Made by a program: the position numbers and the translations under genes
From: Branchiostoma floridae
Taxonomy: Eukaryota; Chordata; Leptocardii; Amphioxiformes; Branchiostomatidae
Reading direction: 5' to 3'
Assembly: GCF_000003815.2 (NCBI RefSeq)
Contig: NC_049980.1
Location: 17,165,912 to 17,229,911 of the forward strand
DNA: 64,000 nt
The notes under the pieces: generated by a model
Seen by the model: only the letters and a program-made list of their open reading frames with translations
What the model was told of the DNA's origin: nothing
Databases searched by the model: none
Shown: in pieces, positions 21,086 to 64,000 of the stretch
Position numbering within the stretch: the first letter of the stretch is position 1
Layout: every line of letters starts with the position of its first letter

Positions 21086-21118
21086 CACATACACGCGTGC
21101 GCGCACACACCTACAAGT

Positions 21119-21155
<37 letters not shown>

Positions 21156-29087: not shown

Positions 29088-29279
29088 ATATTCTCCAAGC
29101 AGAGGTTTGGCTCTGACTTTTTTTTGGGGGGGGGGGACGTATTTTAGGAATTTTTGCTTTTGATTTTGTACCGTTTGTGGCCAAACAAAACATAAAAAAC
29201 AGTACAAAATAGAAAGCCCAATAAAAACGCCTAAAAACATAAAAAAACAGCTGGAGCCTAATCTCTCCTTGGAGAGTAA
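29088..29279. mobile_element. ~190-bp MITE with TTCTCCAAG termini
   Basis: Left end TATTCTCCAAGCAGAGGTTT and right end ATCTCTCCTTGGAGAGTAA are imperfect inverted repeats (CTCCAAG-AGAG core plus GGCTC/GAGCC). An A/T-rich interior includes a G homopolymer at 29127-29136. The minus-strand 114-codon frame across it ends within the element and is not accepted as a gene. Confidence 0.55.
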
Positions 29280-31652: not shown

Positions 31653-31864
31653 TACTGTAAATGCAGAAATGTTAGCGGTGGATTAATGTTCGCGGTTTTC
31701 GCGGTGACCACTTCACCGCGAACTTAAAACTACCGCGAATATTTTTCTATTATGGTATTAGACTGCAGTCTATGGTGTTACCGCGAAATTAAATCCACCG
31801 CGAAAAGTCCGTTCTCCCGCTACCGCGAAATTAAATCCCCGCGAACTTAAATGCATTTACAGTA
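31653..31864. mobile_element. 212-bp palindromic MITE with TACTGTAAATGCA termini
   Basis: Perfect 13-bp inverted ends: TACTGTAAATGCA at 31653-31665 and TGCATTTACAGTA at 31852-31864, consistent with a TA target site. The interior is built of repeated CCGCGAA(A)TTAAA and TTCGCGGT motifs in both orientations, so most of the element could fold back. Non-coding. Confidence 0.85.
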
Positions 31865-34800
31865 TTTTCCATTTAAATTTATCCTGTCTAGCGTATATAT
31901 TTGAGATAATCGGCATTGGGATGTAAAATTTAAACATGTTTCAAAACGAATCAATCAGCCAATGTTGTGTTTACTCTGCAAAACCAAAAGCCTGAACTTG
32001 TGATGTACAAGCACAAAATGTGGGGTTGGTACCAGGTATTCTATAAATCCAAGTTATAACATGGATGTCTATATTTCATATGTATTGATTACTGTTGATT
32101 TTTTATGTATATTTCAAGTTATCAATAAATCTAAAAAAATACTCTATAAACATACATTAGAAATGACTGTGCCTTACAGTCACTTCCAAAACGAGGCTCA
32201 GGCCAAGGAAACAGATCACGTAGCACAGAAATATTACCACACTGATATTGCATGGGATTACTTTGTAATGAAATCTGCATGTGACTATAGCAGGTTTGTT
32301 TACTCACGTTGGTTGCTGGGGTCATATGTATTAGAGCACACGCTCAGTGTATAACCAAGTTCAGGAGGGTGCCATTTTCAAGATGCCTGACTTGACACCA
32401 TGACAGCTTCTGTATAAACTGAGAGGATGAATGACAGTGAAAAGTGGTTCACATCTGCCTTTTTAGCACCATACATTTAAATGGGGGTCTGATCTAGCAT
32501 TTCCCAGGTACTATTGGGACACAAACAACAAACCAGGCACTGTTATCATTTGTACATTGTGACTCCTCTCACATAATGGGCAGGAGGTCACAGAACAGTA
32601 CTGTCCAGTATGTCCTGGATAAGGCCTTGGCAGCTGCTACCCAGGGGGCAAAAATGTGCTGGAAATAACTTAAGTTCACAACTTGATCTGGGACTTCACT
32701 GCCAGGAAATAAGGAGTAACAGGCAGGCACCTATTTCCAAAGTGATCCAAGGTAACACGCACATCCTATCAAGGCTGACTGGCCGACAGTGTCATCTGGT
32801 CAGAGATGATCTCTACCTTCTTGCACTATGTGAACCTCAACTTAAGTAAATTTCATGCAACATCCTGTGCATATCAGCCCAGCAGCACACAGAATATATT
32901 ATAGAATATCAATAGCTGGCAGACAGCCTAATGGGACATGGACACTAGTCAGCCCTGAACAGTGAGTATATACAAAAACTGGAGGGAGGATTCAACCCTG
33001 CCAATGACCTTCAAATATTTATCATCACTACCAAGCACCATAGCAGATGTCCCGTCATTCTTGGCATTTTAAATTACTCCCTTGTAGATCAGTCAAAGTG
33101 GTCTTTGTTCAAAAGAGTTTGCTTCTCTATGCTACTTTTCAACGTATGATGTCCAAAGGGACATCATGTGTTGAAAGCCAGCATATAGCAGATGGACTCC
33201 TTACCAGTGGAGGTTTCAATCCAGGAGAGAAACATTATTTTGTCAAAAACCCTGGAGGATCTAATGACTCAAAGCAATGGCGGGCTTGGAAGTCATTACA
33301 GAGAGACAGCTCTGGTTTCCAATTAACAGTTAAGTACGTTTATCAAGGATGGAAACAAAAACAAATGATTCCTCAGTTGTACAGTTTTAGAATCTTGTAT
33401 CTATATTACAAAAATAAAAGGTGCTTCCAAAGGGAAGCTTGAGCAAAAGTAAGCGTGTAAGCAGAAAACAAATGATAATAAATAATCACACATAATTTTC
33501 TTTTTCAAGTCAAATTTGCTCCCAGTTTAGACACATTTCAGAGGAGTGATGTGTTAATGTTTATGATTGACTGCTTCATCAACCACTCACAGAAATAGCA
33601 GGCAGTGACATTCAAGGGCCTGGAGGTGAAAGGTCAGGGGTTAGAATGTCTGCAAGGGAGATGGCCCCTTTGGGCCCTGTCCCATTGATGTAACAGTTAT
33701 TAAACTGGGTATGAACAACTTATGGCCAGACCTATGATAGCAATGATGTTCACTTGTCATAAATACTAATAATACATCTGCTGTATCATTTGCAGCCAGT
33801 AGGTACATACCCAATTTTTCAGTAATGAGGCTCCTCGAACATGGGATCCCCGTTTTATGTTCCTTCTGAAAGACGGATTTGTGAATTCTGAAGATCTATA
33901 CTTGGACAGACATTTTCTACATACACAAGCACCAACATGAAACATATATACACAATCACACATGCACTGTAACTAAAAGAAAGAAGCTATGCAACCAGGT
34001 CACGTCACAGGACTGGAGCCACCAGTAGTTAATGCCACCAGAACCACAGAGTTTACACCAAAATAGGCTAATATCTTTTTGATGTCATTAAATAAACACT
34101 TGAGAAAAACAGGACAAGGGAAACCGCCCCCACAGAACAGCTGTAAGTATGGTACAAACACGAAGACAAACGCGTTAAACAAACAAGATAGTTTACTCTG
34201 AAGATTCACTATCTTCATTAGCGTAGCCAGACTACGTCAAGATATCCTTGTGATATAAAACTGCTTAGAAGAACAGATAGTTACTTCCTGTCATTATCTG
34301 ACAAAACCAACTGATACATGTGGGCATCTTGTTCTATTCTCACAATGCTGAAGGCTAACAAAACTTGTGTGCAGATGCTGAAAATGAGACATAATATTGA
34401 ACTTATTGATAAAGAAAATGTCGCTTTATCTGAGGTCTGAAGACACTTATTAAACACTTAGGAAAGACAGGTATATGATAGGTATTAGATTAGCTTCCTT
34501 CAGAATCAATTATGGGCAAACATATCCATTTACTTAGGCACAAAAATGAATTGTTCTACAAATGTCCTGGTCAATTTGAGCCCAGAAATTTCTACTTCAG
34601 TCTGAGATTCCTGCTGAAAATGAAACCCTTGGATGGACATTCTTTGTCAATTAAGCAGACAAAGTGGCATTCCCTTGCCTTCAGGCAATTTCGGCACATT
34701 GTTCTCATAATACCTTCAATTGTTGTTTCACTCACTAACAACTGCTGGAATATACACGACTCTCTGGGATAGGGTTCCAGTATCCCAACACATCAGAGCG

Positions 34801-35656
34801 ACAACAACAACAAATCAAGGTGAATTCCGAGTGGGGAAGGTCATGTGTGGTATTTCCACTTCCCTCCCGTTCAGTTGGTAAGTTGCACACCAGGTGCAGG
34901 GTGTCCTCTAGGTGCCAGTCATTCTGTGTCACCTGCTTGACCCCACTGGCTCCTGTTTGGTCAGGGGAGACTCTACCAAAGGGTTATGAACCAGTTCCTC
35001 TAGTTTGTTCTACTAGCTGGGCGGAAAATTGCCTCAGTGAGAATTCTACCAATGGATAAGCCTTCTTAGGATACACATGTCAAGATGGAGCTCTAGACGC
35101 CCTGGCATTTAGACCAAGCTCTGCATGGCACCTATCATTTTATACCACACATACCTACAGGTCAAAAAGGCAGTTAGTTTTGCCTTGGGCTGAGTCTGTT
35201 CTTGTTGAATGAATGAATACCTTTAATATACATTTTGCTGTGCAGACTGAGAGCTTAGTACACAACTAAAAGATTCACACTTACAAAGTTAGATACAGAT
35301 GGACTTTTCTCCTCCTTTTACCTTTTTCAAAAAAAAAGTATAAGTAACAGATAATGGACGTTTATAACAGAGAGTGAATAAGTAACCTCCTTAAAAAGTT
35401 TATTGAAGGGATAATGTTGCAATTTTATACAAGTCCTTCCTGCCAAGAAACAGAAGCAGATGTGAGGTGCCCTGGGCACATTCCACAGTTGGCCATAAAT
35501 CTTTGGTTTTGTCACCTCAAATTGTCTGGTCTTTCCAATGCAACACTGTATCTATGTTTCTTTCATTCCTTAAAACTAGGTCTTAAAGACAAGTTGGCAT
35601 GATGAGACAAGATAATCTGATTTTCAGATTGAACGAAGAACTTGTTCAATTCTTAC

Positions 35657-36599: not shown

Positions 36600-36660
36600 G
36601 CCTGACCGAAGCTGCAGGTTCACCAGTTCGGCCGCCATCTTGTTTATTCATGACGTCACA
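36600..36660 (-). promoter_or_regulatory. CHSY1 promoter-proximal motifs (YY1-like and CRE)
   Basis: About 170 bp above the CHSY1 start codon lie GCCGCCATCTTG (36631-36642, the reverse of a YY1-type CAAGATGGCGGC) and a perfect palindromic CRE, TGACGTCA (36651-36658). They are 8 bp apart, in a CpG-containing stretch with no TATA box. The transcription start is not directly visible; the role is inferred from motif and position. Confidence 0.5.
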
Positions 36661-37005
36661 TGCACAACACCCACGTGGATCCTCCACGCAGATACTCCTG
36701 ACATCATTTGTAGCGCTAAGGAACCTGATAAGCACATAAGACCTGTGGGACAAAAAATTTAACGTTCCATTAGGCAGAAATTTAACTACATTTCAAATTC
36801 CTTGAATAATTTCATCAAATCGGTAAAGGACTGAATAACAACCAGACACCACACCAAGCCAGTGCAAAGTGAACCAGTGCAAAGTGAACCAGTCAGTATT
36901 GCCTTGAGTGACAGACAGATGGTCACCGAAACGTTAACTGTTTTGCTACTCAGCAGCTACTAACTGAATAAAAACTTTGTTATTTCTACTCAACCGAAAA
37001 GCTCT

Positions 37006-37076
37006 TTTCTACTCTACTCTACTCTTCTCTACTCTACTCTTCTCTACTTTACTCTCTACTTTACTCTGCGCCTCCT
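37006..37076. repeat. (CTCTA)n-like microsatellite
   Basis: Repeated TCTACTCTACTCT-type pentamers interrupted by TTCTC and TTTAC variants. Just upstream, at about 36856-36890, a 17-bp sequence CCAGTGCAAAGTGAACC is duplicated in tandem. Confidence 0.85.
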
Positions 37077-37744
37077 CCATCCGCGTGATATTCCTACTAG
37101 GAAGTTTGCGGATTACGAACTATAACTAGAACTAGAACTAGTCTACTACATGTAGTACATTAATCTCGTGCGTACTAAAAGGTAGACTGCAAAGACCAGG
37201 AACCTCAACCTTAACCTGGTAACCGTAGTAGATCTCAGTACACAGGATGCAATATATAACGTTATCTAGCAAGAGCTAGGGTATTTTTTTTCTTTTTCCC
37301 TTTTCTAAGGGGACGCTGAAGAATGATTTTTTCTGTATACATACATGATTTCACTCGCCCCAACAGATGGAAGTTGTTTATCGCTCACAGACGCCTCTGG
37401 TCTTTGACTACAAAACTGCACCCTAGGCCTGACGGCGAGTGGCTGATGAATGAAGAGACAGTCGACGATCTCATAAATGGATTGACTTGCGGGAGCAAGA
37501 CAGGTCGTGGCATCGATTTCACTTGCTTTTAAATTTACACTAAACTAGAAAGAATGGGATGGGGCGGTGTCAACAACTCGATAACGACATTATGACTGAT
37601 ATATACCAAGGAAAATCAGTTGGAGCTTTGGAAATCAGTTACCACTGAAGGGACCACCATCAATTCATTAACGTCCTCCGCGATAAAAAGTACGTTTTTA
37701 AAAACGTCAATTGTCATTGTCCTCTTTTTGTTTGGCAAATGCAG

Positions 37745-37983
37745 ACGACCTAGTTGGATGGACAGTACAGGGCGAGTAATGGCCAACCAATCAATCAACG
37801 AGAAAGTCGGTCTTTGCAAGTACAAGCCCACCTGCAGTCCAACGGAACAATGGGTAGAACTTAGGAGAAACATGTGCGTGCCTCTTGAACCTGTCCAGCA
37901 GTGCCGACGTTCCTGGGTGTGTTTTTTCACCCACGCTGGCATTTCGTTCAGACTAAATGGAGGATTCAGCAGTGTTCGGGGAG
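37745..37983 (+). CDS. Candidate orphan exon, cysteine-containing, unrecognised
   Basis: A pyrimidine-rich acceptor (TGTCCTCTTTTTG...ATGCAG) and a strong donor (GTAAGA at 37984) bound an open stretch of about 79 codons. It reads RPSWMDSTGRVMANQ..., then CKYKPTCSPTEQWVELRRNM and CVPLEPVQQCRRSWVCFF, with five cysteines. The 5' side is phase 2 and the 3' side phase 1, the same phase class as the cysteine-rich exon at 43138-43262. It might be an extracellular module of a gene in this region, but the cysteine spacing fits no family I know, and no partner exon is certain. It could be chance. Confidence 0.25.
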
Positions 37984-38399
37984 GTAAGAAATGGGGACCA
38001 CTGGCGAAACAAGTCACAACACAGGCAACATTAGCACGTCAAAGGACGTGGGGAGAAATTCCCTAGCTCCAAGGGCGGAAATACCATAGACTGTGTGTGT
38101 CCTGAGTTACGCTATAAGCTGGAGTAGCAGGTGCGGGTATGGGGGGACTATTCAGAATTAGAACCGTTACACATGTTGGATTTTGTTCACGATAAAAGTG
38201 TCCCTTCAGCTTAGCTCCTGGTAATGAATGTCCCTAAACATTTAAGTCACTCGTGGCTTTTCCAAAATTTCAAACCAATGAAAGCCCTAGTAGCAACTTT
38301 TAATGTTGGTAGCCGCGTATGGCATAACGTAGGGTGTTCGAAGGGAATACAAACTGTGTGGCTGCCTTGAATTAATATCCCGCCAGAAATAGATCCGCT

Positions 38400-38508
38400 A
38401 TGTCAACAAATCCTGTCAATATTCATATGTCAACAAATCCTGTCAATATTCATCCTTGTCGTAATAATTCTGATGACGTCAGTCTTGTTTTATAATTGCC
38501 CTATATAA
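38400..38508 (+). promoter_or_regulatory. Candidate TATA/CRE core promoter
   Basis: A perfect 27-bp tandem duplication (38400-38426 and 38427-38453) is followed by a palindromic CRE, TGACGTCA (38474-38481), and TATATAA (38502-38508). Transcription would start near 38535, about 70 bp before the ATG at 38607 proposed as the first exon of the receptor-like gene. Motifs are read directly; promoter function is inference. Confidence 0.35.
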
Positions 38509-38606
38509 CAGCAACGGCAAACAAGCCTTGTAAAATATTCTATCCAGCAACGCGCAACAATCGACTTGAAAACGTAGCGAGCGACGAGGAGATATGGCCA
38601 AATCTG

Positions 38607-41600
38607 ATGCAAGATAGCACCCCGTACATCACTATATGCTTTATGTTATTCGTTATCATACTCATAATCTCTTGGTAGTCCTTCGGTATCGAAGATGACT
38701 CGTCAGGTGGCTCGTCAGCCGGGGGTGAACACTCATATGGCTCCTTTAGTCTGACCGATCGACACAACAACGCATCAGAGATAGTCAAAGTCACTACGGT
38801 CAAACAGCCTTGATGTGGGGCAGAATATCTCTCGGACGCACGGATCAAGAGGGCACGCTAGCTGGGGCCACTGTCCTGATTCATGCTACACCATGTGGGA
38901 TGAGCACTCCCTGTGACTCAAGCTGACGGTAACCTGACAAAGAAGGTCCAGAATTCTTTACTGGTGGAGAGTGCAGTATCCACTAAAATAAAATGACAAA
39001 CTGCCCACCATCTGCTATTCGATGACAGCCATTGCCATGGAGAAAAGTACAAAACAGCCATTATACATAACTCATGTAGCTGTGGCAGGTAGTGCCTCTC
39101 TTAGCACCGCGATGACAGTTTTTCAAGTGAAACGATGCTAGAGTGGTCCGGGCAGGTACGATTCATGACGACACTAGAGAGATATCCATCAAAGCAAGAA
39201 GAATTCAAATCCTGCTGAAGTAAATTGTGCATAAATAACACAAACACACCTGATTTCCCCACCGTACTTGGGCCTGACAGTATGAAACTCCTGAATGCCC
39301 ATTGATCCGACCCTTCTGCAGACAGTGTACGTGTACGTCGTCCCCAACAAAAGTCAGGCGTAAAAATGTGCCTAATTTTGGATGAGGTATGTACAGCACA
39401 AACTACCGGAGTTGATTACGTTGAGAAGTCAGCGTACGCGTGAAGAAGACTATAATAGTATAATGCCTGCATACTCTATGACATAGCACTATTCCAATAC
39501 CTGGTGTTTGGACTATGTCTACAGAGTCTATGCCGGCGTTCTAGCCGCATGGTTGTGCTCAAAAAGGAAGTGACGCAACGTTTAGTAAATACGCTCTGCT
39601 GCTTGGAGGGAAGAAACGTCACGATAACAGCTGCGACAGGAAGGGGAGTGTCAAGCAAACGTACGGTGGCAAAACTTTAAGTTTATCAGAGTCGAAAAAA
39701 ATATAGCACACATCGTGAAATAGCCAATTCATTCCTGTTCTTTCGAGGAATGGTCACTGATATTGCACTTTTTAAAATGAAAATGAAAATGGAAAACTCA
39801 TGAAAATGTGTAGCCAATATAGGTGGTGCTTTTTTGACATTTTGATTTGATCATTTACCTTAACTTGGGTGTCCCTGGATAATCAAATCGACAAGAACAT
39901 TCGTCGTTGACAAACTATTTTTCGGTGAAACCTAATACATAACATACAATGCACTCAGATCATGAAGTCTTTACGTTCATGCGGATGTACAGCATTTGAT
40001 ATGAAGTGCACGGACTAATCGGTAGAAGGCGTTAGTGTACATTTGAAAAAGTCATGTCATGTCACTCATTGATGCTTTTGGGTCGAGTAATCACATGCTT
40101 GCACTGAATTAATAATCATCAATACAATATTCATTATTGTTGAATGCATGCTTGTTGAATATGTATATGACGTGACCTAATATCGGAAATAAGTCTTTGG
40201 TTTCGAATATACACGAATTCAAATTGTTGAATCTGGACTACAATATATTACGTCAACTTCTGAACCTGGCGAATGTAGTACTACATGTATATGGGGCAGG
40301 AGCACAAGTAACCGTAACTTAGTAAGGGACGCAATCTCTGTGAGGTCGATCAACAAACAACCAGCTAGAATGCTAGAATGTGTTTCCTTAGCGATGATAT
40401 GTTTGTTCACAGCTAGCTAGCCAAATAAGTCAACGTACATAACGATATTCTTCCGATGATGTGACGCATCATAGGAAAGGGACTAGTCCTTACCAACCCC
40501 GTTCACACTCAAAAAAATGAAGCGGCTTCAACGTGGAAGCCGCTTGATCCGGATCGTTTTCTTGAGTGTGAACGCTCCAAGCGGCTTGGATTTTCACCGA
40601 TCCGGCTCGTTTGCAATCCATCCCTGGGAGGTAGTTTGAGACACTTGTGAACAAGCCGCTTGGCTGAAATCGCGAGTGTGAACGCAACGCGGGATAGATT
40701 CTATGCAAATTTCCGATTTGCCCCCTGTTGGAGGTTATATATCCAGGTATCGGGAGCAGGAACACACGCCACGCTGACAGGTTTGCTCACGTTACTGATT
40801 TTTGAGCCCAATGATAATGTCTGGAAAGAAAAAAAATCGCTGTAGGGTCAAGGCAAGTGGAATGGGAAGCAAACAAAGCTTTTTTTATCACGCGAAGAGA
40901 GAGGAAACACAGCAAGCTAAAAACAAATCACAAAAAACAAGCATATCTTTGAACAGCTTTCTCTCTGGATCATGATGTAAGACTATTAAGGGTGGGCTTG
41001 AGAAAACCTACAAACAATGTTGTAAAAAGTACCTGAAGTCCAGGTACGGAATTGTGTGCGATTAATCGGATTGTCTGAACTAAGTGTGAACGTAATTTTT
41101 TTGAAGCGGCTTGCACGTTCAAGCGGCTTCCACGTTCAAGCCGCTTCATTTTTTTGAGTGTGAACGGGGTCCTAGAAAGCCAACGGAGCACACTTTTATA
41201 CTACTCTTTTTAGGAAGATCAAATAAACACGTTTGCATTACATTACATATTGCCTTACATATTATATTATAGTACGCACACATTTTCCCCAATTCAGGAA
41301 CAACACAAATCTATGATGCCAACGAATCTGAACCTAAGGCAGGAATCACTCTCGTGGGTGTGCAAAGCTGCCATTTGAAGACCAACGTATGACAGGCGTA
41401 TTGTATGCCATAGAAACTGAATACTATATATATTCTGCCGCAAAAGAGGAAGGGAAGTCCACTAATGTGTTTATATAAGGTAGCATTGGCACACAACAAT
41501 AAGTGTTGATGTTACCCAGTCGGACAGTGTTAATGTTATCATGTGCGAGCATGATAGATCAATAGCTGAATGATGAATCAGAAAGAGACAAAATGATAAC

Positions 41601-44600
41601 GACCCAAAGGACTAGTTACTCGTACCTTCACCGATCGAGATGGTTGTATCAACTTTCATGAAAATAAGGGAACGTAGGGAGCCGTTTGTGCGTCTTCTTC
41701 CTTGCGATTCAGCAATATCCCAATAATGTTTCCAGTGATGGTGATGATACTTATAAGGCGTTATAGACCTAATCGTCGAGCTCGAGGTCAATTTTGGACC
41801 TTTTAGTACTAGTGGTCGACCTTGATACTATAGCAGGACTTCCGGATTTGAACCTCTGGTCCTGGACATAATGTGGTCATGATTTTTTTCTGGTAGGTAG
41901 TTCTTGTGCAATGGATGAAGTGACATAGCGATATAGCACTGACAGCACTGGACCCACTGGCAGATTCCTGTTTATTGGCAGACTTTGAAACAAAATGCCT
42001 CTGGTTGTTGGATCCTCCGGTCTGTAGATAGCTTAACTTGATTTACAAAGCGACCGCAGCCAAAATCTAACAGCCTATTAAGAATTTATCTAGAGATATT
42101 TACAAAACATTCTGTTGATAAAGTTGGTATTTTTGCGTATGGTGTTGATGGAGAAAACAATGCCAATATGACCAGATTCTTAACGTTCACTTGTTTGGTG
42201 ACCGACCTTTCGTGGTTGTTTGCTTGTTATTACATTGTGAATTTTTGACATTCAAAAGAAAATCACACTTAAGGTAANNNNNNNNNNNNNNNNNNNNNNN
42301 NNNNNNNNNNNNNNNNNNNNNNNNNNNNNNNNNNNNNNNNNNNNNNNNNNNNNNNNNNNNNNNNNNNNNNNNNNNNNNNNNNNNNNNNNNNNNNNNNNNN
42401 NNNNNNNNNNNNNNNNNNNNNNNNNNNNNNNNNNNNNNNNNNNNNNNNNNNNNNNNNNNNNNNNNNNNNNNNNNNNNNNNNNNNNNNNNNNNNNNNNNNN
42501 NNNNNNNNNNNNNNNNNNNNNNNNNNNNNNNNNNNNNNNNACTTACCCTACAGAAACTAAATGAGCTAAGATAGCTTGAATGTCCTTTGTCACGTTGTAA
42601 AGTCTTTATGAAATATCTGAGGATTTTGAAAACATGTCATCTGCTTTCTACAAATATACATACACATGTGATTGTGTCTTGTAAACGGCCGATTTGTGCA
42701 TATGTTTTAGTTTCAATCTAAGAAACATAGTGTATTTTGTCAGAAGCATCGCCGCATGTTTTGGGTCTTTACAACTTTCAAAATAAACCCACCGCCACTG
42801 AAGTCGACCAGAAACGTATAGAAGGATTGCAGATACTGTTGAACGACACAAACATTTCATATATGGTATGTTGAGGCGTGGCTTGGTTTATCCCACGATA
42901 TATGGGGTGGAAAGTAGAACGTTTCTTTCATAAGACATAAAAATATTTAGACAAAAGGGAAGGGAAGTATTCTTAACCGCATAACATCATTCGAGATACA
43001 AGTGTGATGCTTATGTAAAACGAAAAATACATTTTTATTTGTCCCCAAATGGTTACGTCCACAACACACCTCTGAATGGGTCCACATGGTATGTCTCCAT
43101 TTTCTGACTATGCAGAAGCTTATGGATAGTTCCTCAGTTTTGTAACCATGATGGGAAAGTGTCCGGAGAATTTCGGCTGGGACAGCGTCCTGGGGTGCCG
43201 CCCGTGTGTCATCTGTGTCAGCTGGCCAGATGACCCTCACTGTTGGGACTGTCCACTGCCTGGTAAGCGATTTATTTGCACACAGTCGGTATTGATAGAA
43301 AAGCGAGGGTTTCCGTAAAAGTTCAGGTTTCTTACCAAAAAAAGAGGTAATCGACCGAAACACAGGGAATCGTGTGCATTTTTCGACAAAAAAGGTCCAT
43401 ACCTGCAAAAATGTCTTTGAGCAATTAAGGCGTAAGTAAAGAAAGTACTAATGAAGAGGCTAAATCAAGATCAGCCATTTTTGAGCAAAGACGGAGGAAC
43501 ATTATAAGAAGTAGTAAGTGCTGTTTTGTCGCGAAAATGTTGTTTTATCCACCTATTTCTTTTGTGAGCTTGATAGACTTTGCCAGACTTCTTTCATCGG
43601 CACCATGTTAGGTGGCATTGCCGTTATGGGGGCAGAGGGAGAGGCTAATAGTAGCGTCCACCGCTTGGTGGCGCCTTTCGTGATATTCGAAAGCTACATC
43701 GGTTTTTGAGTCGGGAAAATATTTCAACAAGTGATATATTGAGTTAGATACACTAAGAGTGTTTAGTCTTTGGAAGATATAATTGGGGAAAACCCAACCC
43801 TCTCCCAGCTAGCTTTCGTTTTCCGTAACCTGATGTCAAAGTCTCAAAGAACAAAACAAAACGAGCTATTGAATAAAAAGTAGATATAGGAGAGTTGGCA
43901 CACTGAAATACAGAGATGATCTTAATGCCTAATCTACTGCTAAAATTTGAAGATGACCATGGATATTATCAAATCCAAATGTATCTGTTGCTAGGGAACT
44001 TCCCTGAATCAGGGATAATAGAATGAACAGTTGACAAGGAACTTTAAGTATTCGGGGAAGTCCCGATAAAAAACCGTAGTCGCCCTAATGGACCACAGAT
44101 ACATGGGATGAAGCAAATTTTAAATGAGTATCCTTTAAAAATAGAGTTCATATCTTCTATAATTCGATAGATTCAGTTTGGCAAGGAAATTTATCTTACC
44201 ACAGTATCTCGTTGCTGACTTGTTCTCAGCGAAATGTGTAAATAAGGGATTTTTGGTTCGAAAAATATATAAGGTCACACCTACATTATTGTGAATGAAG
44301 TTGTGTCAATTAACGATTGCCAGAATAACGGCTTATTTTTTTCGGTGCAATGCGTGTTGACTACGGGTAGTTGTAACATTCGTTACCGATAACAGCACAC
44401 TGAGTTTTTTCATCGAGAGACGTAGTAGCATATATACGGACAATAAGAAACTGGACAGCTTTCTTACACCAGGTCAAGAGAATGACGTAGAAAGCATCAA
44501 ACAAATCGATGATGATAAGGATTTCAATAAAGTAATAAACTAATAATGATTAACAGTGGATACAAACATCAGACTTTAAAGTGATACGGATAAAAAAACA

Positions 44601-47051
44601 AGTAGTTATATATATTTCAAGGTGACCCCATGCCTTTACATGTGACTTCCATGTGAATACAGCTCAAGAAGGTCAGAGAAAGCCTTATGAAATGTGTACT
44701 GACCGCGCCTTAGTGAAATCAGTAAGAAAAATAAAGCGAAAGAGGTCGACTCATCGGCTAAACAATCATTCTCAGTTTTGAGCTACTTGATGAATTCTAT
44801 CATCCTCTCAGGTGACAGTCGCTTTTAGCGGTGGAGTTCTACTGTGGTTATCATTTCTTCCAAGCTATCAACCAATACATGTACCTATGTTGTTGTGTAC
44901 GTGCATTGTTCGTAATGCATAATAAGTGTTGTGGGAAAACAAGGATGCTGCCCTTAATTTTGCCCATATAAAACTGTCGACAGCACTTTTTGCACATTTC
45001 ATGAACGAGCCTACTACATGTACGTGTACGTGCAGTGCGTTAACTCCATCTGTGAGATCTTTACATAAAGTAGAGGTTTATCGTGGATTGGGTTCGTGTC
45101 TTCGTTTGCCCATTGGGGTCAGTATGCATACTTTAAAATCTATATCAATTTTATCAANNNNNNNNNNNNNNNNNNNNNNNNNNNNNNNNNNNNNNNNNNN
45201 NNNNNNNNNNNNNNNNNNNNNNNNNNNNNNNNNNNNNNNNNNNNNNNNNNNNNNNNNGTCCGGGTTTAATTAAGAAAACGTGAATGTGCAATCTTTGGGA
45301 GCAACCCCCATGGCAATTATTACCTTATACATGTAAATGTATCAAAACAACTCGAGTATCAACTCGAGCAGAGTGTCAAATGTTAAAACGAGATCTTGTG
45401 ATCCGAACGAACAGAAACCACGACAGGGTACGCCGCTTCCGTGACTACTTCAGCAAGTTGGAGCAGTACTTCAGGTGGGCAGGAGGGGCTGTGGACTACT
45501 GTGGTAGCTGATGGCATCATCAGTACTGTCCGAGAGCTGCTTACTAACCTGCCCGGGCCGTCTACCGTCCGTGACACCCAGGAGATAGTAGTGGGTACGG
45601 CAGGACAACAGGGTAGGGTGAAGCACATATTCTGAAGCTTTATGAGATTTAAGGTTAAGATCGTGCACGTCTGGGTTTAGGCTACCCAATTTATAGATGT
45701 CTAAAACCTCAAATGCGATCCACACACCTATTCATAACCCCTGAATTTTCGTTCTCTTTAAACCCGGTTCCACAGACCCCTAAGACTATCACAAGAAATT
45801 GGGTTCAAGTACAAGTACTATAGGTTGGCTAGTTGATAGGCTCCGATTGATATAAAAAAAAAACTGTAGCACCAGGGCACTGGCTGTGCCTCACTTACGC
45901 TCCGGGTCCTTTCCACAAGACGGCGACCAAAATTGGATTTGTGTGACTCTTGACTTCATGAGTTGGAATATGATTTAAAAAGAACCGATGACTTAAATAA
46001 AAGACATCAAAACACACAAAACGTAAAAAAAATCGTTCTTTATCTATGAAATGTGTTGAGGTCTGAGATCTGTTGCTCAACGGTCGCAGCGCAGCCGAAG
46101 CCTCTAGAGGAAAAGGTGTGTAAAAAGGGTGTAAAAGGTATTTTCGAGTAAGAGAAATACCAATAAGATAGTGGAATACATGCAAAATACGTATGGCAGG
46201 GGCGTCATTTTTTAGATACACCGGAGTTTTATCTGTAAACACCTCCAAGCTAGACTGTTACTTCCCCTGGGACCGAATGACCTGTCCTAGCCACCTAGCC
46301 ACTGTGACATGGTAGCCTAAAGTACTGTGTTAAAGTTCTGTTTGAAGATAACTCTGACGATGATTTGACCGATTTCTGAATATATTGGGTCTTCTGACGC
46401 ACTGGCACATGAAACACATATTAATGTTATCTCCCTGAACTTAATGGCGTCATGAAACATTTACAGAAAAGTAACAAACATTACTCTTGTGTGAATTACC
46501 TTTCTTGATTTCTTTCCGAGCATTGCATCTTGCGAAAGGCTGACAAGTAGGATGCTGTTCACCAGGTTACTGTTTGCCTTCTCTCCGAGACTCTCGCCGC
46601 CTGTAGACGAGTGACACGTATGCACAAAATGTCTGCTACACAGACTCTTTCTGCAGTCACTTTTGTCAAACCTATTATTAGTGTCTCCGAAATTGGAAAC
46701 AAAGGCACCAAGATTGCATCTTACATCCTGGTTATTCGGTAAACAAAAGGCACCAATCAATAGCCTTTATTGCACATATTAGTTGGAGACTAACCTATGC
46801 TTGGAGAGTAACCATCTGTACCCGTATGGTGATGAACAGGTTTTGGGGAGGAGCTGACGTGCTCGGAGCTGACTGTGGTGGGCGTACTGAGCGCTGTGCT
46901 GACGTTCCTGTTGGTACTCCTCCTACTAAGCTGTGTTGCTTGCGGGGGGAGGGTGTGGCGTTGGTGGGACAGCGGGACCACCAGTGTTACCCTGAGGAAA
47001 TCCCCCAAGAAGTCACCTCTCAGTACGTACTATTACGAATCAGTCAAGTGA
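38607..47051 (+). CDS. Candidate TNF-receptor-superfamily-like single-module membrane receptor
   Basis: Four small exons with matching phases. 38607-38674 (phase 2 end): start ATG and hydrophobic MLFVIILIIS, signal-peptide-like. 43138-43262 (2 to 1): six cysteines spaced C-X11-C-X2-C-X2-C-X8-C-X2-C, beginning KCPENFGWDSVLGCRPC; the spacing is nearly that of Fn14 (TNFRSF12A) and the CPE..WD..LG.C..C pattern recalls TACI/BCMA modules. 45475-45612 (1 to 1; an alternative acceptor at 45427 is also phase-compatible and adds a Ser/Thr-rich stretch): stalk. 46840-47051: helix LTVVGVLSAVLTFLLVLLLL, then a basic tail ending YYYESVK and a TGA stop. About 180 residues. No TRAF-binding motif was recognised, and the 3' end is uncertain: a good acceptor at about 47738 could add an exon. 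Two gaps lie inside. MMGKC could itself be the start, as in signal-less BCMA. The cysteine and membrane exons are the strongest parts. Confidence 0.5.
40496..41170. mobile_element. 675-bp MITE with ~50-bp terminal inverted repeats
   Basis: Ends ACCCCGTTCACACTCAAAAA and TTTTTTGAGTGTGAACGGGGT are inverted copies. The match continues inward through AATGAAGCGGCTT and GGAAGCCGCTTG for about 50 bp. Further copies of GAGTGTGAACG and AAGCGGCTT occur inside in both orientations, like subterminal transposase-binding repeats. No transposase frame. It lies in the large first intron of the proposed receptor gene. No clear target duplication was found. Confidence 0.8.
42278..42540. other. Assembly gap (263 N)
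   Basis: Run of unknown bases about 600 bp before the six-cysteine exon at 43138. Additional exons of that gene could be hidden here. Confidence 1.
45158..45257. other. Assembly gap (100 N)
   Basis: Exactly 100 N, probably a scaffold join of unknown true length, between the cysteine-rich and stalk exons of the candidate receptor. Confidence 1.
45908..46125. repeat. Dispersed repeat pair, copy A
   Basis: Shares ordered blocks with 47461-47672: GGCGACCAAAA, ACAAAACGTAA, TTCTTTATCTATGAA, GGTCGCA-GCAGCC and a GGAAAAGGTGTG-like end. The ends (CCTTT...GCGACC against GGTCGC...AAAGG) look weakly inverted, suggesting an old MITE. Confidence 0.55.
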
Positions 47052-47460
47052 CCACCTCTACATAAGGACCACCTGTCCAATCCACTTTCTCGTGGTCCCT
47101 TAACAATTTTTCCTTTCACACAACGGCAGAAAGAATCCGGTCTATAGTGACCATTGTTGTCAACATAGACCAGATTTTGGGTGCAGTTTTGACTATAACT
47201 TTTCATCATCATCATCAATTAAGAAAGTCCGGAAAAATGAAATTGGTGAGAATATGGATGTGACATTGGTAGTTGTGACTAAATAATGCAATGTAGGCCT
47301 CCTTTTGTCATCAAATATGTGACTTAGAGACATCATTGCTATTGGTAACTAAGTCGTAACTGAGTAGCATGAACTCTTCAAGCGCATCAGAAGCCATGTG
47401 CATGTCAGGAGCTTTCAATGTCAGTAAAAAATGGTACTAGTCATTTCCTTTATGCTTTAG

Positions 47461-47672
47461 GCCCCTTTGTACTAGAGGGCGATCGCTGAGGCGTATGGCG
47501 ACCAAAAATGCAGTTCATGGCTTTGTAATTGGAAAACGATGCAACATGTGAAATTATGACAACAAAACACACTAAAATGTCACAAAACGTAATTCGTAAA
47601 GACATTCTTTATCTATGAATTCCTTGGTCACTCAGTGGTCGCATGCAGCCTCTGATGGAAAGGGTGTGGTAG
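47461..47672. repeat. Dispersed repeat pair, copy B
   Basis: Second copy of the repeat at 45908-46125, same orientation, about 1.5 kb downstream. Ends CCCCTTTGTACTAGAGGG and AGCCTCTGATGGAAAGGG are imperfect inverted repeats, with GCGACC/GGTCGC further inside. Confidence 0.55.
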
Positions 47673-48077
47673 TAAACTACACATCACACATAATGTTTTT
47701 CAAGGTTGACACCGTGTATCTGTTCTTTTTTTCCCCAGGCGCCGGTGACTCCGCTACATTTGGGAGGTAGCTCTTTTGACATTGCCGCTAGGTGGCATCT
47801 CAGCTCAGCTAACAGATTCCGTGCAGACTGCTTCAGTTCAGGTCTAGACGTAAAGATACCGCATGGAACCCAAGTAAAAATGCATATGCATACTTTGATG
47901 AAGGATCTGTGATGGGATTTAGCTAAGGAAATATGTTTTTGTTATCTAAGGATATAGGTCTATCTATTTTCGCAACATGAATCAGTCATGGAGTTTCTTA
48001 AAAAGCACATTGCAATATCACTACAAAGCTGGAATATATCTGGTTACTAGTAATTCTGGTCATACAAGTATAAAATG

Positions 48078-48177
48078 NNNNNNNNNNNNNNNNNNNNNNN
48101 NNNNNNNNNNNNNNNNNNNNNNNNNNNNNNNNNNNNNNNNNNNNNNNNNNNNNNNNNNNNNNNNNNNNNNNNNNNNN
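48078..48177. other. Assembly gap (100 N)
   Basis: 100 N, directly followed by a perfect hairpin at 48179-48221. Fold-back DNA may be why the assembly broke here. Confidence 1.
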
Positions 48178-48178
48178 T

Positions 48179-48221
48179 TTAGATTTCAAATTGTGCAATG
48201 GTTACACAATTTGAAATCTAA
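48179..48221. repeat. Perfect 17-bp hairpin next to an assembly gap
   Basis: TTAGATTTCAAATTGTG (48179-48195), a 9-nt spacer, then its exact complement CACAATTTGAAATCTAA (48205-48221). It may be the end of a longer palindromic element lost in the gap. Confidence 0.8.
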
Positions 48222-48857
48222 CCAGTGCTGATTTTGGACGTGCCCATTTTCTGGCTGGTTGACTGAGACAGAAATAGACTGCTCCAATTGTTCATGGCTG
48301 AATTCCAGGCTAACTTGCCCAGGACCATGGAGATAAAATTGGATAGAAGTTACCCCCTTAATTGTAATACCCCAATAGCATCCATTCCCTACCCCAATAT
48401 TTACTAGCTAGTGGTTGTGGGACAAGCACTTTTGAGGCAGTACTAAACATGCTACATGTATTTACATCTTGACTTCTGCATTACAATACAGGGATGCTGT
48501 AACGGAAGCAAGAGTTCCATGAAATATCTTAATTATGCATTACTTCTTTGCATGATTCTGAACATCATTAACTTAGATACACGTCCAAAATATTATTGTC
48601 TCTCATCATTTGGATTAATTATGGCACTTACATATGATGTGAACTAGACCCTTATTTGCAAAACTGGTACCTGTTACAACTTCACTTGCCATAAATTACA
48701 TCCATGTATTACAGTCCTATTAAGGAAAACATTGGGACATAGAATGTTATTACAATCCTGGTGCAGTACGTAGGTCACATACTATGGAGCCCTAAATTCA
48801 CCTTGACCTTGGTCTTCTGAAGACCATCCCAGATACCAAATATCGTAATCCATCAAA

Positions 48858-49455
48858 CAGGGGTGCCTAAGCATTTGCACGAACCCTATGAAATTCGTAC
48901 GAATATTATGTGATACACACGAATCACTATGCAAAAACGCACGAATATTATGAAATTCGCACGAATCACTATGCAAAAACGCACGAATGTTATGAAATTC
49001 GCACGAATCACTATGTGATTCACACAAACCTTATGAGATTTGCACGATCCTTATGCAAAATTGCGCAACCACTGCCAGGGTCACGTGACAGACGGAGCGG
49101 GATTTTCAAGATGACGGCTTCGATCGGCGGCGACGGAAAATACAATGTAACACCCCGAAATGAAGCAAAACAGTAGCTCACAGGCTATGAAATACATCTT
49201 TGCGACGGTAAATGTCCATTTCATGCCTTGAAATATAAATATCACGGGTAGAAACGCTCAAAATCATGCCACCTCCCGGCCGACATTTTTGCATAAGGAT
49301 CGTGCAAATCTCATAAGGTTCGTGTGAATCACATAGTGATTCGTGCGAATTTCATAATATTCGTGCGTTTTCGCATAGTGATTCGTGTGTATCACATAAT
49401 ATTCGTACTAATTAAATTATTTCATAGGGTTCGTGCAAATGCTTAGGCACCCCTG
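48858..49455. mobile_element. 598-bp fold-back element with repeated arms
   Basis: Ends CAGGGGTGCCTAAGCATTTG and CAAATGCTTAGGCACCCCTG are exact inverted copies, and arms of about 170-210 bp remain complementary. They consist of a reiterated cassette (CGAATCACTATGCAAAAACG, CACGAATATTATGAAATTCG and variants); the left arm has one extra cassette. TCAAA flanks both sides (48853-48857 and 49456-49460). The ~220-bp loop is different: CpG-rich, with GTCACGTGAC at 49080-49089 and a short frame from ATG 49111 (MTASIGGDGKYN...) ending at 49176. Confidence 0.85.
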
Positions 49456-49894
49456 TCAAAAGGTTCTTTGAACATAGTAATGTCTACTTAACTGCCTCCC
49501 TCAAAATTACTAGTAAGGCCAGGTTTGATTATATGGATGAGAACCATAAAACTGATGCATGCAAATAAAAAAAAAGAGCTTGGCCTAAAAAAAAAAAGTT
49601 GTCTGTACTTCAGTAGTCAGGAAGGTTGAACAAATGACTCAACACACAGAGTATGTTATACCAAAAAATAGATTCTTCATTTTTGTTTTTTGCGTGTTTT
49701 CTTCTTTTACCTTGAAATTGACGTTATACAGTATAGTTGAAAGTTGATGTACATGCAGATGTCATCCATATAATCAAATCAACATGGCCTGATGACTTGT
49801 CTACAAAACTGCCCTCCCTAAGAAAACACTTCTTGCATGACCTGAACACAGACAGACAATAAAAAAGAACAAGAAAAACATGGGTAACGGATAT

Positions 49895-49900
49895 TTTATT
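49895..49900 (-). other. RPL17 polyadenylation signal
   Basis: Minus-strand AATAAA about 46 bp after the RPL17 stop codon. A very short 3'UTR is typical of ribosomal protein genes. Confidence 0.85.
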
Positions 49901-49945: not shown

Positions 49946-52319
49946 CTATTCTCGCTGCATCATCTTCTGACGAGCAAGCTTCTTCTTGGAGACCTTCTTC
50001 TTAGACACCTCATCCTCAGACTTGGCAATGACCGTCTCCTGCTCACTCAAGATCATCTCGATGTGGCAGGGAGAGCTCATGTAGGCTGCAATGAATAGAA
50101 AGTTGTGTATCTTTCAGAGTGTTTCCTGGTTGCACAGAGTAAATTTAAAACTACTGAATATGTACATGTATACATTTTGTGTACTTGATTACAACTGAAC
50201 TATGTTGACATTCTCAAACTTATGAATACTAACAGCTCTACAATGTGCGTACAAAACAAAACAAAATAGAAGCAATGTTTGGAATCTACCAACCTACAAT
50301 GCCTTTTTGAAAAATGAAAGTGACCCAGTATTTTTTATACCATCATGTCACAAAATATCAATTCTATAAACTTTAAGAACCCTGACTTCTAAACCTGTTA
50401 CATCAATCAAAGAAATGTAACTGGGTGATTATGACATACAAATACTGTACGTACGATTGATACGGCCGTGGGCTCTGTATGTTCTGCGCCTCATCTTGGC
50501 AGCCCGGTTCACCTGGATGTGTTCCACCATCAGAGAATCCACATCAAGACCCTGCATCATGTACATACAAAGTCAACCATCAAGTTCTCCTTACGAGAAA
50601 TAAATTCTGAATCTGAATCATTAAATAAATATGTTACACACTCTTCTTTCCATAGCTGTGAGTGACATGGTACAGTACCTTGAATTCAGCATTGCTCTCT
50701 GCATTCTTCAGCAGTTGCAGCAGGAATTCTGCACTTTTCTTGGGCCAACGTCCCTGAGTCCAACGCCAGGCCTTGCACTACAACAAAGCATCACAACCAG
50801 AATTTCATTAACCCAGAAATGAAAAGGCCATAAACACAGAAACATCAGAAAAATGGAAGAAAAATAATACATGAATGAGTGACAAAAGTCAAAAGCACAA
50901 TAAATTACAGATTAAAAATGTATACATCTTGCCCTTCCAACAGCACCTATCAACATCAAAGCCAATTATGTAAGTTCTTTAAAGCTCTTACCTGTGCCTT
51001 GCGTCCCACACCACCATTGTACCTGCGGAAGGGCACAATCTGCTTTTTGGCAGTGACATCTTTCAGGAAACGGGTGGCTTTGCGGATGTGCATGCCCTTG
51101 ATTGCATTGGCCGTTTCGCGGGTATTCTGTTCATGGGAGCATAAGTAGGTATTTTATTGATGTGCAGGTGAATATGCTCAAAATTATTTTGAAACTTGCA
51201 GTCAGAAGACAAGGTTGCAGCTTTTTGTAACACTTCTGTATGTCAAACATGAGCATTTTACAAACATCAAATGGCACTAATATTGTATTGGTACACTGGA
51301 AAGTTGGTGAGCAAAACCTTAACCATTAAACTGCCAGAGTTTCAGCCTTATAAAATGCTATCAGTGCCAGGGTTGGCCGCTGACCTCCCCAAAGAAACCC
51401 CCGAACAAGGCCCAAGTCCCTAACTTCTGGGGTTCTTGCGCTACACGTGCGCAAAGCTGCTACTTCGGGGGAATACACTATCCCGGATATATCTGGGCAC
51501 AACACACAGGACATGTATATGTGTGCCGGATCGGATATATCCAGGTTTGGCAGTTTAAGGGTTAAGTTCTAGCTTCAAAGCTGATACAGCCTACAATGTG
51601 TTCTGTTAGTAGTTCCACGTAAGTTGATGGTGACTATGCAGTGATAATTATCTAGAAATGGCAGTATTTACCTTGAAGTGCACCCGCAAGTTTGAGCCAC
51701 GGGCTTTACATGCTGCAAGGAGGAAGAAATAAAAACTAAATGTTGGTTACTTATTACATACGTGACTGAATCAGTCACATTTTTTCATTTGCTGTATTTG
51801 TGTATATTTCTGTTTTGTTTCATCAGGGTAGCTCTCCTCAAGTATCTGAGCATTGATTGGCAGAGAGGCCCCAGATCATGGCTGGATACACACATACAGA
51901 CAACAATATATACATCACATATCTAGGCATCAAATTACATGTACAGCATTGTCTTCTATACTTCTGTTAGTAACCTATGCCAGATCCTAAGGTTTGGAGA
52001 TCAGAGGTCATTAACTACTCTTTCTTACAGCATTTTGAATGTTTGTATGATGGACGAGTGTTTTTTTACTACACCTCTATAAGCAACTGTTCTTTTGTCA
52101 CATTCTAGTTTCATTCATATGGTGTCGGGTTGAATATGCACAAGTTTTTGATGTTCTGCCAAAGAAGCTTAGGTACTGGGGTAGATTATCATACATAGAC
52201 CTGCAAATAGTTTGTAGAAGAATGCATTTAGCGGCATGACGCTAAATCTTTCCAGGCAAGACAAACTCAGAAGACTTACACTTGGTGGCATTCTCCGGGT
52301 CCAGTGAGTACCTGGTCAT
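49946..52319 (-). CDS. RPL17: 60S ribosomal protein L17 (uL22)
   Basis: Cytosolic large-subunit protein lining the exit tunnel. Six coding exons on the minus strand: 52319-52280, 51712-51672, 51126-50992, 50777-50679, 50551-50455 and 50085-49946. They sum to 552 bp, i.e. 183 residues and a TAG stop, one residue shorter than human as I recall it. It starts [20 protein letters not shown], includes [53 protein letters not shown] and [13 protein letters not shown], and ends with the usual lysine-rich tail [18 protein letters not shown]. All junctions are GT-AG and keep the frame. The ATG sits 16 nt after a CACAG acceptor, showing that a noncoding 5' exon is spliced on (proposed at 54698-54722). 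Introns hold a piggyBac-like MITE and a nested mariner/LINE insertion. No guide snoRNA was convincingly identified in the introns. Confidence 0.97.
51323..51561. mobile_element. 239-bp piggyBac-like MITE in an RPL17 intron
   Basis: Terminal inverted repeats CCATTAAACTGCCA and TGGCAGTTTAAGGG (one mismatch) are flanked by TTAA on both sides (51319-51322 and 51562-51565), the hallmark target site of piggyBac transposons, whose ends also begin CC. The interior is GC-rich and non-coding. Confidence 0.75.
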
Positions 52320-52388: not shown

Positions 52389-54055
52389 CAGTCAAACCTG
52401 TCTATAGCGGCCACTCAAGGGACTGGTAAAAATTGGCCACTATAGAGAGGTGGCCACTATAGAGAATACGCTAATTAATTCACCACAAGCAATAAGTTAC
52501 ACATGGTTTTAGTACCCACTGATCTTTCTTCACATAATACAGTACTGTACATGTACTGCAATGATTTTTACACTATACGTATTAAGAAAACAAAAGCTAT
52601 AAAAAGTTTTAAATGTTCTACAGTTGATATTGTCTGGAGAGACCGGTACCGTCATATTTCTTTTATCTTTCGTCTTCTATCCTTTGATACTTCGCCGTCC
52701 GTGTGTTCCCGCTCGCGTTCACACGTCAGATTCGCCCATTATGCTAATGTGGTACTCACAAGAAAAGTAACGTCATTTTAGACTTATCTCTTAATAAATG
52801 TAAGAATAAAATCCACCATAGTCTGAAGTTCATATCATTTTGTCTTTGTAACAATTTATTTAGAAATTTTTGTGATGTAAATATTGGTGTCGTCTATTGA
52901 CCTTATATGACCTCATTTGTCAGCGGGTTTGGGTAGCGCCAGTTTACGAAGTTTTGTTTTGAAAATAAGTCAAAGAGGTTTTAAATCCGGCGTAGGGTGA
53001 CGATACGGCCGCTGTATATGGCCGAACGCGTGCCGAAACATACATCAGCGGTCCGCGTGGCCGTAATCACAGGATGTCACAGGATGATCCTTAACGGCAA
53101 GAAGAGCATGCAGCTTCAAATTTGCTTTTGCAAAAGCATTCCGACGCCACCTACTCTGATTCTAGGGGGGGAAGCAGTACCCGTCGTGGAGTCAGCTAAA
53201 GGTCTAGGATTCATCCTTGACAGAGGTCTAACCCTCAACGACCAGGTTACGTCGATGGTGACCAAGGGCTCACGCAGACTTTACTACCTACGTGTCCTAA
53301 CCAAACAAGGCATGTCGGTGTCCGACCTTGTACAGGTGTATACGGCCCTGGTCAGGCCCGTACTTGAGTATGGCCATGTTCTCTTAGTTGGTTGCACCAA
53401 ACAACAAGAACAGTTAATCGAGAAAGTGCAAAGGAGAGCACTAAAGATCATCTCTCTGGGTGGCAGGAGAAGTGTTCCGGATTTGCCCACACTCAAGGAG
53501 AGACGTGAACTCGCTGCCATTAAGCTACTCAAGCAAATGATGAACCCGGATCACCCGCTACATGACATGGTCCCTCCGGTCAGGTCAGAGGTCACTGGAA
53601 GGTCACTTCGAAGCTCATGTAGTATCTCCGTCCCAAAAGCAAGGACCTCCAGACTGCGCAACTCATTCCTACACTATACAATCAGACAGTACAACAAATC
53701 AATGACTGGTGCCTAAGTGTTTTATTTGTCCATGTACTGTGTATGTCATGCGTACTGTACATGTTGTCTAGTCGTTGTAAGTATTCACTCTGAGTCACAT
53801 TGTAAAGATCAACGGCATTCAGAGATGCTTCTGCTAAGAATTAATCTCTGTAAGGTTGATTTTAATGAATAAAGAAAGAAAGAAAGTAATCGGCAGTGTT
53901 TTTGTACCTGCGGGACCGGAAATCGTGTGGCCGTGTTGGACAGGTGGCCGGTAAGCCTATTTCTTAATCATTACGAATCCAAGGGACCGACAAAAAGTGG
54001 CCACTATGGGCAGGTGGCCATTATGCAAAGGTGGCCGCTAATACAGGTTTGACTG
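52389..54055. mobile_element. Mariner-type element (copy 2), interrupted by a LINE
   Basis: Left end CAGTCAAACCTGTCTATAGC and right end GCTAATACAGGTTTGACTG form inverted repeats of about 25 bp (continuing into GCGGCCAC). They are flanked by TA on both sides, the Tc1/mariner target site. It matches copy 1 (25775-26368) along its right side. A LINE fragment at 53069-53885 lies inside, so the original element was about 850 bp. It lies in the 5'UTR intron of RPL17. Confidence 0.8.
53069..53885 (+). mobile_element. 5'-truncated LINE fragment nested in the mariner-type element
   Basis: A frame from about 53089 to the TAA at 53714-53716 encodes the end of a non-LTR reverse transcriptase (LNGKKSMQLQICF, VESAKGLGFILDRGLTLND, VYTALVRPVLEYGHVL, KVQRRALKIISLGGRRS). 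It ends AATAAAGAAAGAAAGAAAG, a short-repeat tail as in CR1/L2-type LINEs. GTAATC occurs directly before (53063-53068) and after (53886-53891), a probable target duplication. It is antisense to RPL17 and too short to move. Confidence 0.8.
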
Positions 54056-54697
54056 TATCAACTTGAACAAGTCTAACACTAAAAAGGTACCATTATAGTT
54101 TGATCTAGTGACCATTCAATCATAAATTCCTTGCTATAGTCAACATTATGACATGGTAGGCAACGTACAGAGTTGACACAAATCAAAGATGTTAAGATGG
54201 TTCCAAGTGACGAGTATTTCTGGGTTTTGTTGGAAGTGTTATGCACCATCATGACCATGCATGGGTCACTTCACAACTCTCCACGTTGACACTAACACAA
54301 GTACAACTAACGTTACACCACAGTCCTGAAATTCTACAACTTGCGATTGAATTAAATGTTTTATGAACAGCTATCAAAAGATTGAAATTTCTGGTGTATT
54401 CATGCTTGGATATACGCTTGCAATTCATCCTCTGAGAATATCACCCAATTATTGGGTATAGATATATTTGTATCGGCCTAACAAATTTCTATCATGGCAG
54501 GAGCCCACGAAGGAAACATCGACTGCTACCAATGTGTGATATTTCCCCATGACAAACCGAGTTGATGCAACTTTGGTCTGAAACGATTCTAGAAAGTGTA
54601 AAGTAGATCTGAGTCAACGTTCTGAGTATGTATGTACAGAGAAAGGAGCAGGATGCCGTGGATTGTGAGAATGTTCACATTTCGTCCTCCATCTTAC

Positions 54698-54722
54698 CTG
54701 AACCCACCGACGAAAGAGGAAG
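54698..54722 (-). promoter_or_regulatory. RPL17 5'TOP noncoding exon
   Basis: On the minus strand CTTCCTCTTTCG begins at 54722 and leads after 25 nt to a strong donor, CAG/GTAAGA (donor at 54697). A C followed by an uninterrupted pyrimidine tract is the terminal oligopyrimidine start of ribosomal protein mRNAs. It would splice to the acceptor 16 nt before the RPL17 ATG. It places transcription start at about 54722 and makes translation likely to respond to mTOR/LARP1, by analogy with the class. Confidence 0.7.
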
Positions 54723-55260: not shown

Positions 55261-59955
<4,695 letters not shown>

Positions 59956-60036
59956 TGATGTCACAAGATGATATGGTATCTGTATCTGTAAAGTCAGTTC
60001 TACCACCCATTGGCATAACACACTAGCTCTGATGTT

Positions 60037-62169: not shown

Positions 62170-62177
62170 TGTTTCCC

Positions 62178-63992: not shown

Positions 63993-64000
63993 AATGGTTA

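Follow-up and report, generated by a model that had tools for sequence, protein, structure and literature searches.

We analyzed a 64,000-nt stretch of Branchiostoma floridae DNA (the window, to which all coordinates refer), and report on a candidate gene of the tumor necrosis factor (TNF) receptor kind on its plus strand. Its three short exons, at about 43.1, 45.5 and 46.8 kb, splice in frame to give a six-cysteine module, a stalk, a membrane helix and a short tail (Table 1). An earlier reading, made from the letters of this DNA (the sequence-only reading), had placed four plus-strand exons here, and its numbering is retained: exon 1 is 38607-38674, and exons 2, 3 and 4 are the three named above. 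Its coordinates, the GT/AG borders and the single open frame, with either version of exon 3, were borne out, but exon 1 was not confirmed as part of the gene. The gaps that it placed inside the gene are present as N runs at 42278-42540 and 45158-45257. The neighbors that it named were also recovered, with CHSY1-like exons on the minus strand, and RPL17, located with a human query, on the minus strand at 49949-52319. This is probably a real gene, mis-started in the sequence-only reading, whose product would be of the single-module TNF-receptor kind.

Table 1. Features of the candidate receptor gene and of the exon formerly placed at its start (window coordinates).
Feature	Position	Strand	Content or basis
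Proposed first coding exon	43116..43262	+	5' untranslated region from acceptor 43116, start 43148 or 43151 (MMGKC), cysteine module, phase-1 donor 43262
Six-cysteine module CPENFGWDSVLGCRPCVICVSWPDDPHCWDC	43160..43252	+	Spacing unique in the window; frog Fn14 match
Predicted beta-hairpin tip W-D-S-V-L-G	43178..43195	+	AlphaFold models, alignments; site of the BCMA/TACI D-x-L ligand loop
Stalk exon, phase 1-1	45454..45612	+	GC island, codon bias, exon-chain choice; alternative acceptors 45475 and 45427 in the same frame
Membrane and tail exon, stop codon 47049-47051	46840..47051	+	GC island, codon bias, hydrophobic helix
Predicted transmembrane helix TVVGVLSAVLTFLLVLLLLSCVAC	46872..46943	+	Hydropathy (Kyte-Doolittle) reaches 2.8 over 19 residues
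Possible alternative last exon, from donor 46952	47739..47912	+	Different 57-residue end; chain score nearly equal
Signal exon of the sequence-only reading	38607..38674	+	Probably outside the gene: weak donor, low GC, no codon bias

Exons 2, 3 and 4 are GC islands (GC 0.58, 0.59 and 0.57, with 2-kb averages of 0.34-0.49 in the window). Equally GC-rich segments of the same length numbered 10 of 13849 for exon 2, 5 of 13821 for exon 3 and 0 of 13652 for exon 4. Codon scores, for which the CHSY1-like and RPL17 exons served as the training set, were high for exon 3 (2 of 1243 open segments as good) and exon 4 (2 of 370), and unremarkable for exon 2 (162 of 1533). For exon 3, both measures were taken on 45477-45611 and on 45429-45611. 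The comparison segments overlap each other and include positions 1-7000 and 52401-64000, later found to be genic, which makes the test stricter.

Splice sites were scored with approximate matrices, and percentiles refer to the GTs or AGs of the window. The donors of exon 2 (43262, 99.4th percentile) and exon 3 (45612, 98.2nd) are strong; the acceptors of the sequence-only reading are weak, that of exon 4 (46840) lying at the 63rd percentile. Both exon 3 acceptors of the sequence-only reading, 45475 (78th) and 45427 (43rd), keep the frame, but the best in-frame acceptor is 45454 (93rd) instead. Acceptor 47739, of the possible alternative last exon, scored 15.7 (100.0th percentile).

The region from 36.7 to 49.4 kb was then described by a home-made best-chain search with its own codon table, splice matrices and penalties. 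A first run at penalty 9 was overfitted (best chain, 29 exons) and was set aside, and penalties of 14-23 were picked afterwards. Exons 2-4 were all kept at penalties of 17, 20 and 23. At 14 they were not, and the chain joined exon 2 at 43186 in a different frame. The top chain at penalty 23, with a score of 19.7, was 43151-43262, 45454-45612 and 46840-47051. At penalty 20 the best chain (32.9) also started at 43151 and left exon 4 at 46952 for further exons, the plain three-exon chain from 43151 ranking third (28.7), and at penalty 17 the three exons (start 43138, end 47047) sat within a ten-exon chain. The chain with the alternative last exon reached 18.9 vs. 19.7 at penalty 23, and 30.9 vs. 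28.7 at penalty 20 (third variant, 32.9).

Control regions 10701-23400 and 22401-35100, which share 1 kb and both lie within a CHSY1-like intron, scored -20.3 to -22.6 on both strands at penalty 23. At the same penalty, positions 1-7000 scored 65.1 on the plus and -8.2 on the minus strand, and positions 54001-64000 scored 9.9 and -15.8, respectively; the two positive plus-strand scores led to the GH30-like and kinase genes described below. RPL17, half of which was in the codon training set, was partly recovered at penalties 20 and 23, where one exon was missed and another ran too long; at penalties 14 and 17 the whole gene was recovered together with one false exon. The minus strand of the target region was rejected (-3.5 vs. 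19.7 at penalty 23, and 8.0 vs. 32.9 at penalty 20). The frame antisense to exon 2 (42947-43408, 153 aa) gave no Pfam match at E ≤ 1 and was set aside. Rfam reported no family at its gathering score in 36600-49900, and no phage DNA match was found for 43100-43300.

These results bear on whether there is a gene here at all. Unrelated open frames, or the remnants of a decayed gene, could account for weak acceptors and for the lack of codon bias in exon 2, and the gene is known here from sequence alone. We regard this as highly improbable, because GC islands coincide with the three exons and the three-exon chain stands at 19.7, where the two control regions gave -20 to -23 on either strand.

The start of the protein differs from that of the sequence-only reading, which had opened it with a signal-like exon 1. 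This exon has a GC of 0.35, its codon score was equalled by 1677 of 4197 open segments, and its donor lies at the 67th percentile. None of the three best chains at penalty 17, 20 or 23 used it; an exon ending at its donor was used at penalties 9 and 14, in chains that carried stop codons across joins. A perfect 27-bp tandem duplication (38399-38452) lies directly upstream of exon 1. Among the five AGs in 43060-43165, the best is 43116 (97th percentile), with 43138 at the 71st. A TAG lies in frame between acceptor 43116 and the tandem ATGs at 43148 and 43151, ahead of MMGKC; an N-terminal extension from this acceptor is therefore excluded, and a leaderless start becomes more likely. Both ATGs have an A at -3, and MMGKC lines up with MAGQC of BCMA. 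BAFFR, BCMA and TACI are described as having type III topology and as lacking a signal peptide (PMC5360319; PMC6001812).

The same kind of receptor might instead carry a conventional signal peptide, encoded by exon 1 or by an exon elsewhere (e.g., in the gap at 42278-42540), in an Fn14-like layout. Exon 1 is strongly hydrophobic and is the sole phase-2 candidate between 36.7 and 43.13 kb over the thresholds used (12 or more residues, hydropathy of at least 2.2, donor score of at least 1), and acceptor 43138, chosen at penalty 17, leaves the upstream frame open. Against this, exon 1 has no coding signals and a weak donor, 43138 scores below 43116, and both the A at -3 and the alignment with BCMA favor MMGKC. 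We consider a signal peptide unlikely; the likelier and better-supported start is a leaderless one of the BCMA type.

The module encoded by exon 2 has exactly the spacing given by the sequence-only reading, C-X11-C-X2-C-X2-C-X8-C-X2-C. When the window was translated in all six frames, this spacing was seen at a single place; it was seen in 0 of 200 random windows, which were composition-matched and built from the window's own trinucleotide statistics. A loose version was likewise seen at a single place in the window, and in 3 of the 200. When exon 2 was compared with 177635 distinct PDB sequences, the sole match at E ≤ 10 was frog Fn14 (E 0.15), in an alignment that superposes the six cysteines and has one gap. 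BCMA and TACI CRD2 detect one another at roughly the same level: as yardsticks, BCMA found TACI CRD2 at E 0.14-0.17, and TACI CRD2 found BCMA at E 0.08-0.75. The two-module TACI query found BCMA at E 0.008 and frog Fn14 at 0.15. BCMA was not detected by a profile of two Fn14 sequences without exon 2; the Fn14 plus exon 2 profile matched seven BCMA sequences (E 0.05-0.22), in alignments confined to the first half of the module.

Shuffling of exon 2 with its cysteines preserved showed how far this resemblance depends on the other residues. The BCMA score (15.3 bits) was reached by 0 of 200 shuffles (best, 9.7), and that of TACI CRD2 by 19 of 200. In pairwise tests with 5000 such shuffles, the observed BLOSUM62 value was reached by 5 shuffles for frog Fn14, 4 for BCMA and 2 for TACI CRD1 (a provisional sequence). 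The corresponding counts were 0, 24 and 5 with BLOSUM45, and 38, 289 and 9 with PAM250. No BLOSUM62 signal was obtained for human Fn14 (591 of 5000), TACI CRD2 (914) or BAFFR (2357). The resemblance to frog Fn14 and BCMA extends beyond the cysteines. A five-receptor profile, from a hand alignment of vertebrate modules (one of them a provisional sequence), placed exon 2 first of 2231 window frames, with 14.4 bits and E 0.0044 (next, E 0.31).

Other results weigh against a receptor of this type. The 14.4 bits were attained by 3 of 200 random windows, and the vertebrate receptors, left out one at a time, scored 19.8-41.2 bits, all above exon 2. An Fn14-only profile put exon 2 eleventh among the window frames (E 4.3, with 7.3 bits removed as composition bias), and the Fn14 plus exon 2 profile also picks up an unrelated lyase at E 0.19, besides RBX1 chains from E 0.5 onward. 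The comparison with TNF receptor profiles proposed in the sequence-only reading came out negative: the Pfam search of exon 2 was empty at E ≤ 10, including TNFR_c6 (PF00020), stn_TNFRSF12A (PF12191, which the frog Fn14 module matches at 2.5e-07), PF09257, PF09305 and PF09256, and the whole protein gave weak unrelated matches only, under the cut-off. Because the same library recognizes frog Fn14 and cross-matches BCMA with TACI, but misses exon 2, the latter lies further out than the vertebrate receptors do from each other. PF00020 is a weak test for the single-module subgroup, since BCMA and TACI CRD2 likewise have no match to it at E ≤ 10 and frog Fn14 falls under the cut-off. The single-module Fn14/BCMA/TACI-type receptor of the sequence-only reading is partly supported, by its PDB match to Fn14 and its first rank in the five-receptor profile, but its score is matched in 3 of the 200 random windows and exceeded by the vertebrate receptors.

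A real small membrane protein whose module is unrelated to TNF receptors by descent, through convergence of short cysteine-rich peptides, would be in keeping with the absent Pfam match, the weakness of comparisons over ∼36 residues, the lyase and RBX1 matches, and the 3 random windows that equal the profile score. We judge such convergence to be rather improbable, because the likeness to frog Fn14 and BCMA depends on what lies between the cysteines, and the PDB search with exon 2 gave Fn14 alone.

A hairpin was predicted in both AlphaFold models, both of low confidence. BCMA was the top Foldseek match for both; with the 37-residue model, BCMA (two chains) and Fn14 (frog and human) took the top four places among seven matches, every E being at least 0.4. 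With VIA-align over 18 chains, BCMA and Fn14 were not listed. The DxL ligand loop of the sequence-only reading was not found as such: the tip reads D-S-V-L, hence D-x-V, and it counts against kinship that this is neither D-x-L (BCMA, TACI and BAFFR) nor S-x-D-L (Fn14), the two tip motifs described in PMC8024323. Judged from sequence, D-x-V for D-x-L is a conservative change.

Exon 4 contains the hydrophobic stretch of 20 or more residues that had been announced for it. The net charge is -3 in the 15 residues ahead of the helix and +5 in the tail behind it, and the predicted protein has 161 residues, with a 35-residue basic tail. Members of the superfamily have at least one extracellular six-cysteine module; here one such module, with family-like spacing, lies N-terminal of the helix, and is placed on the extracellular side by the charge bias only. 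The Fn14 tail carries a TRAF-binding motif, and a death domain is larger than 35 residues. A further point against a receptor of this type is that P/S/A/T-x-Q/E-E and two other TRAF patterns were absent from the three modelled tails. The former definition of the TRAF motif, and its presence in the BCMA tail, are given in PMC5360319, where fish TACI and BAFF-R are likewise described as lacking a consensus TRAF motif.

The reading that we favor, with some confidence, is a gene of three coding exons (∼43148-47051, plus strand) predicted to encode a 161-residue single-module membrane protein, most likely BCMA/TACI/Fn14-like in action. The protein would be expressed as a leaderless (type III) receptor, with the module at its extreme N-terminus and the stalk, one helix and the basic tail behind. 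By analogy, the hairpin with its D-S-V-L tip would engage a single subunit of a trimeric ligand from the TNF family. Single-module receptors are described as touching one ligand subunit (PMC6001812); with one hairpin per subunit, three receptors would gather per ligand trimer. TNF-family ligands would not be lacking, since B. floridae is credited with 24 (PMC7674686); a table in PMC4979521 gives it 10 TNF receptors, 4 with death domains. Because the modelled tail lacks a consensus TRAF motif and could not accommodate a death domain, it may recruit its adaptor by an unusual route; alternatively, the protein may be a decoy or modulator. We lean slightly to an adaptor.

Like Fn14 (TNFRSF12A), the candidate has a single six-cysteine module with identical last four spacings (2-2-8-2), followed by a stalk, a helix and a short tail. 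Unlike Fn14, its first loop has 11 rather than 12 residues (11-2-2-8-2 vs. 12-2-2-8-2), it probably lacks the signal peptide that Fn14 has, and, as modelled, it has no S-x-D-L tip, PF12191 match or tail TRAF motif. With BCMA (TNFRSF17) it shares the M-x-G-x-C start a few residues before the first cysteine, the single module and the hairpin (D-S-L-L in BCMA, D-S-V-L here), but BCMA has the spacing 12-2-3-8-3, with a C-terminal 3-8-3 rather than 2-8-2, a D-x-L rather than D-x-V tip, and a PF09257 match and TRAF motif, neither of which the candidate has as modelled. CPE..WD..LG.C of the candidate resembles the provisional TACI (TNFRSF13B) CRD1 sequence, although TACI has two modules and its CRD2 is no nearer than shuffles. 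Because the tests of these three families failed, the candidate is not filed as Fn14, BCMA or TACI; it is probably a mosaic of BCMA-like and Fn14-like features. Grindelwald of Drosophila is described as another invertebrate single-module receptor, but one with X2 plus C2 module pairing and without a D-x-L or S-x-D-L tip (PMC8024323). It was not among the PDB matches of exon 2, its presence in that PDB copy being unchecked.

More tentatively, a leaderless single-module receptor with a BCMA/TACI-type hairpin and an Fn14-type second half might be an extant relative of the ancestor shared by the TWEAK and BAFF/APRIL receptors; we hold this to be possible, though doubtful. Other family members are described as having up to six modules, the receptors of BAFF, APRIL and TWEAK just one or two (PMC6001812). 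If the descent were true, the BAFF/APRIL receptor layout, including the missing signal peptide, would predate B cells and vertebrates, and the origin of the layout would be separated from that of the B cell. With a pre-vertebrate receptor linking both groups, their common origin could be tested by matching it to the TNF ligands of the same animal. Among the open-access literature matches listed there was no amphioxus receptor of this type, the main amphioxus immune-repertoire paper (Huang et al. 2008, cited in PMC7674686) being outside the scope.

Elsewhere on the plus strand, a glucosylceramidase-like gene (GH30; PF02055, E 2.6e-142) occupies 287-4897, with nine exons by the exon-chain search. 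Between two of its exons, a retroelement-like frame (2947-3918, plus strand) gave a weak zf-RVT match (E 0.0028), below the cut-off. The start of a protein-kinase gene lies at 55261-60943 (plus strand), where a 50-residue piece, which we take to resemble MEK1/2, fell narrowly short of the curated cut-off for Pkinase (E 1.6e-07). Upstream of the receptor gene, a 675-bp element (40496-41170) resembling a miniature inverted-repeat transposable element has 52-nt terminal inverted repeats that are 98% complementary. Positions 45890-46120 and 47461-47690 appear, by eye alone, to be copies of one interspersed repeat, which the repeat search did not report; one stretch of this pair ends just before the strong acceptor 47739.

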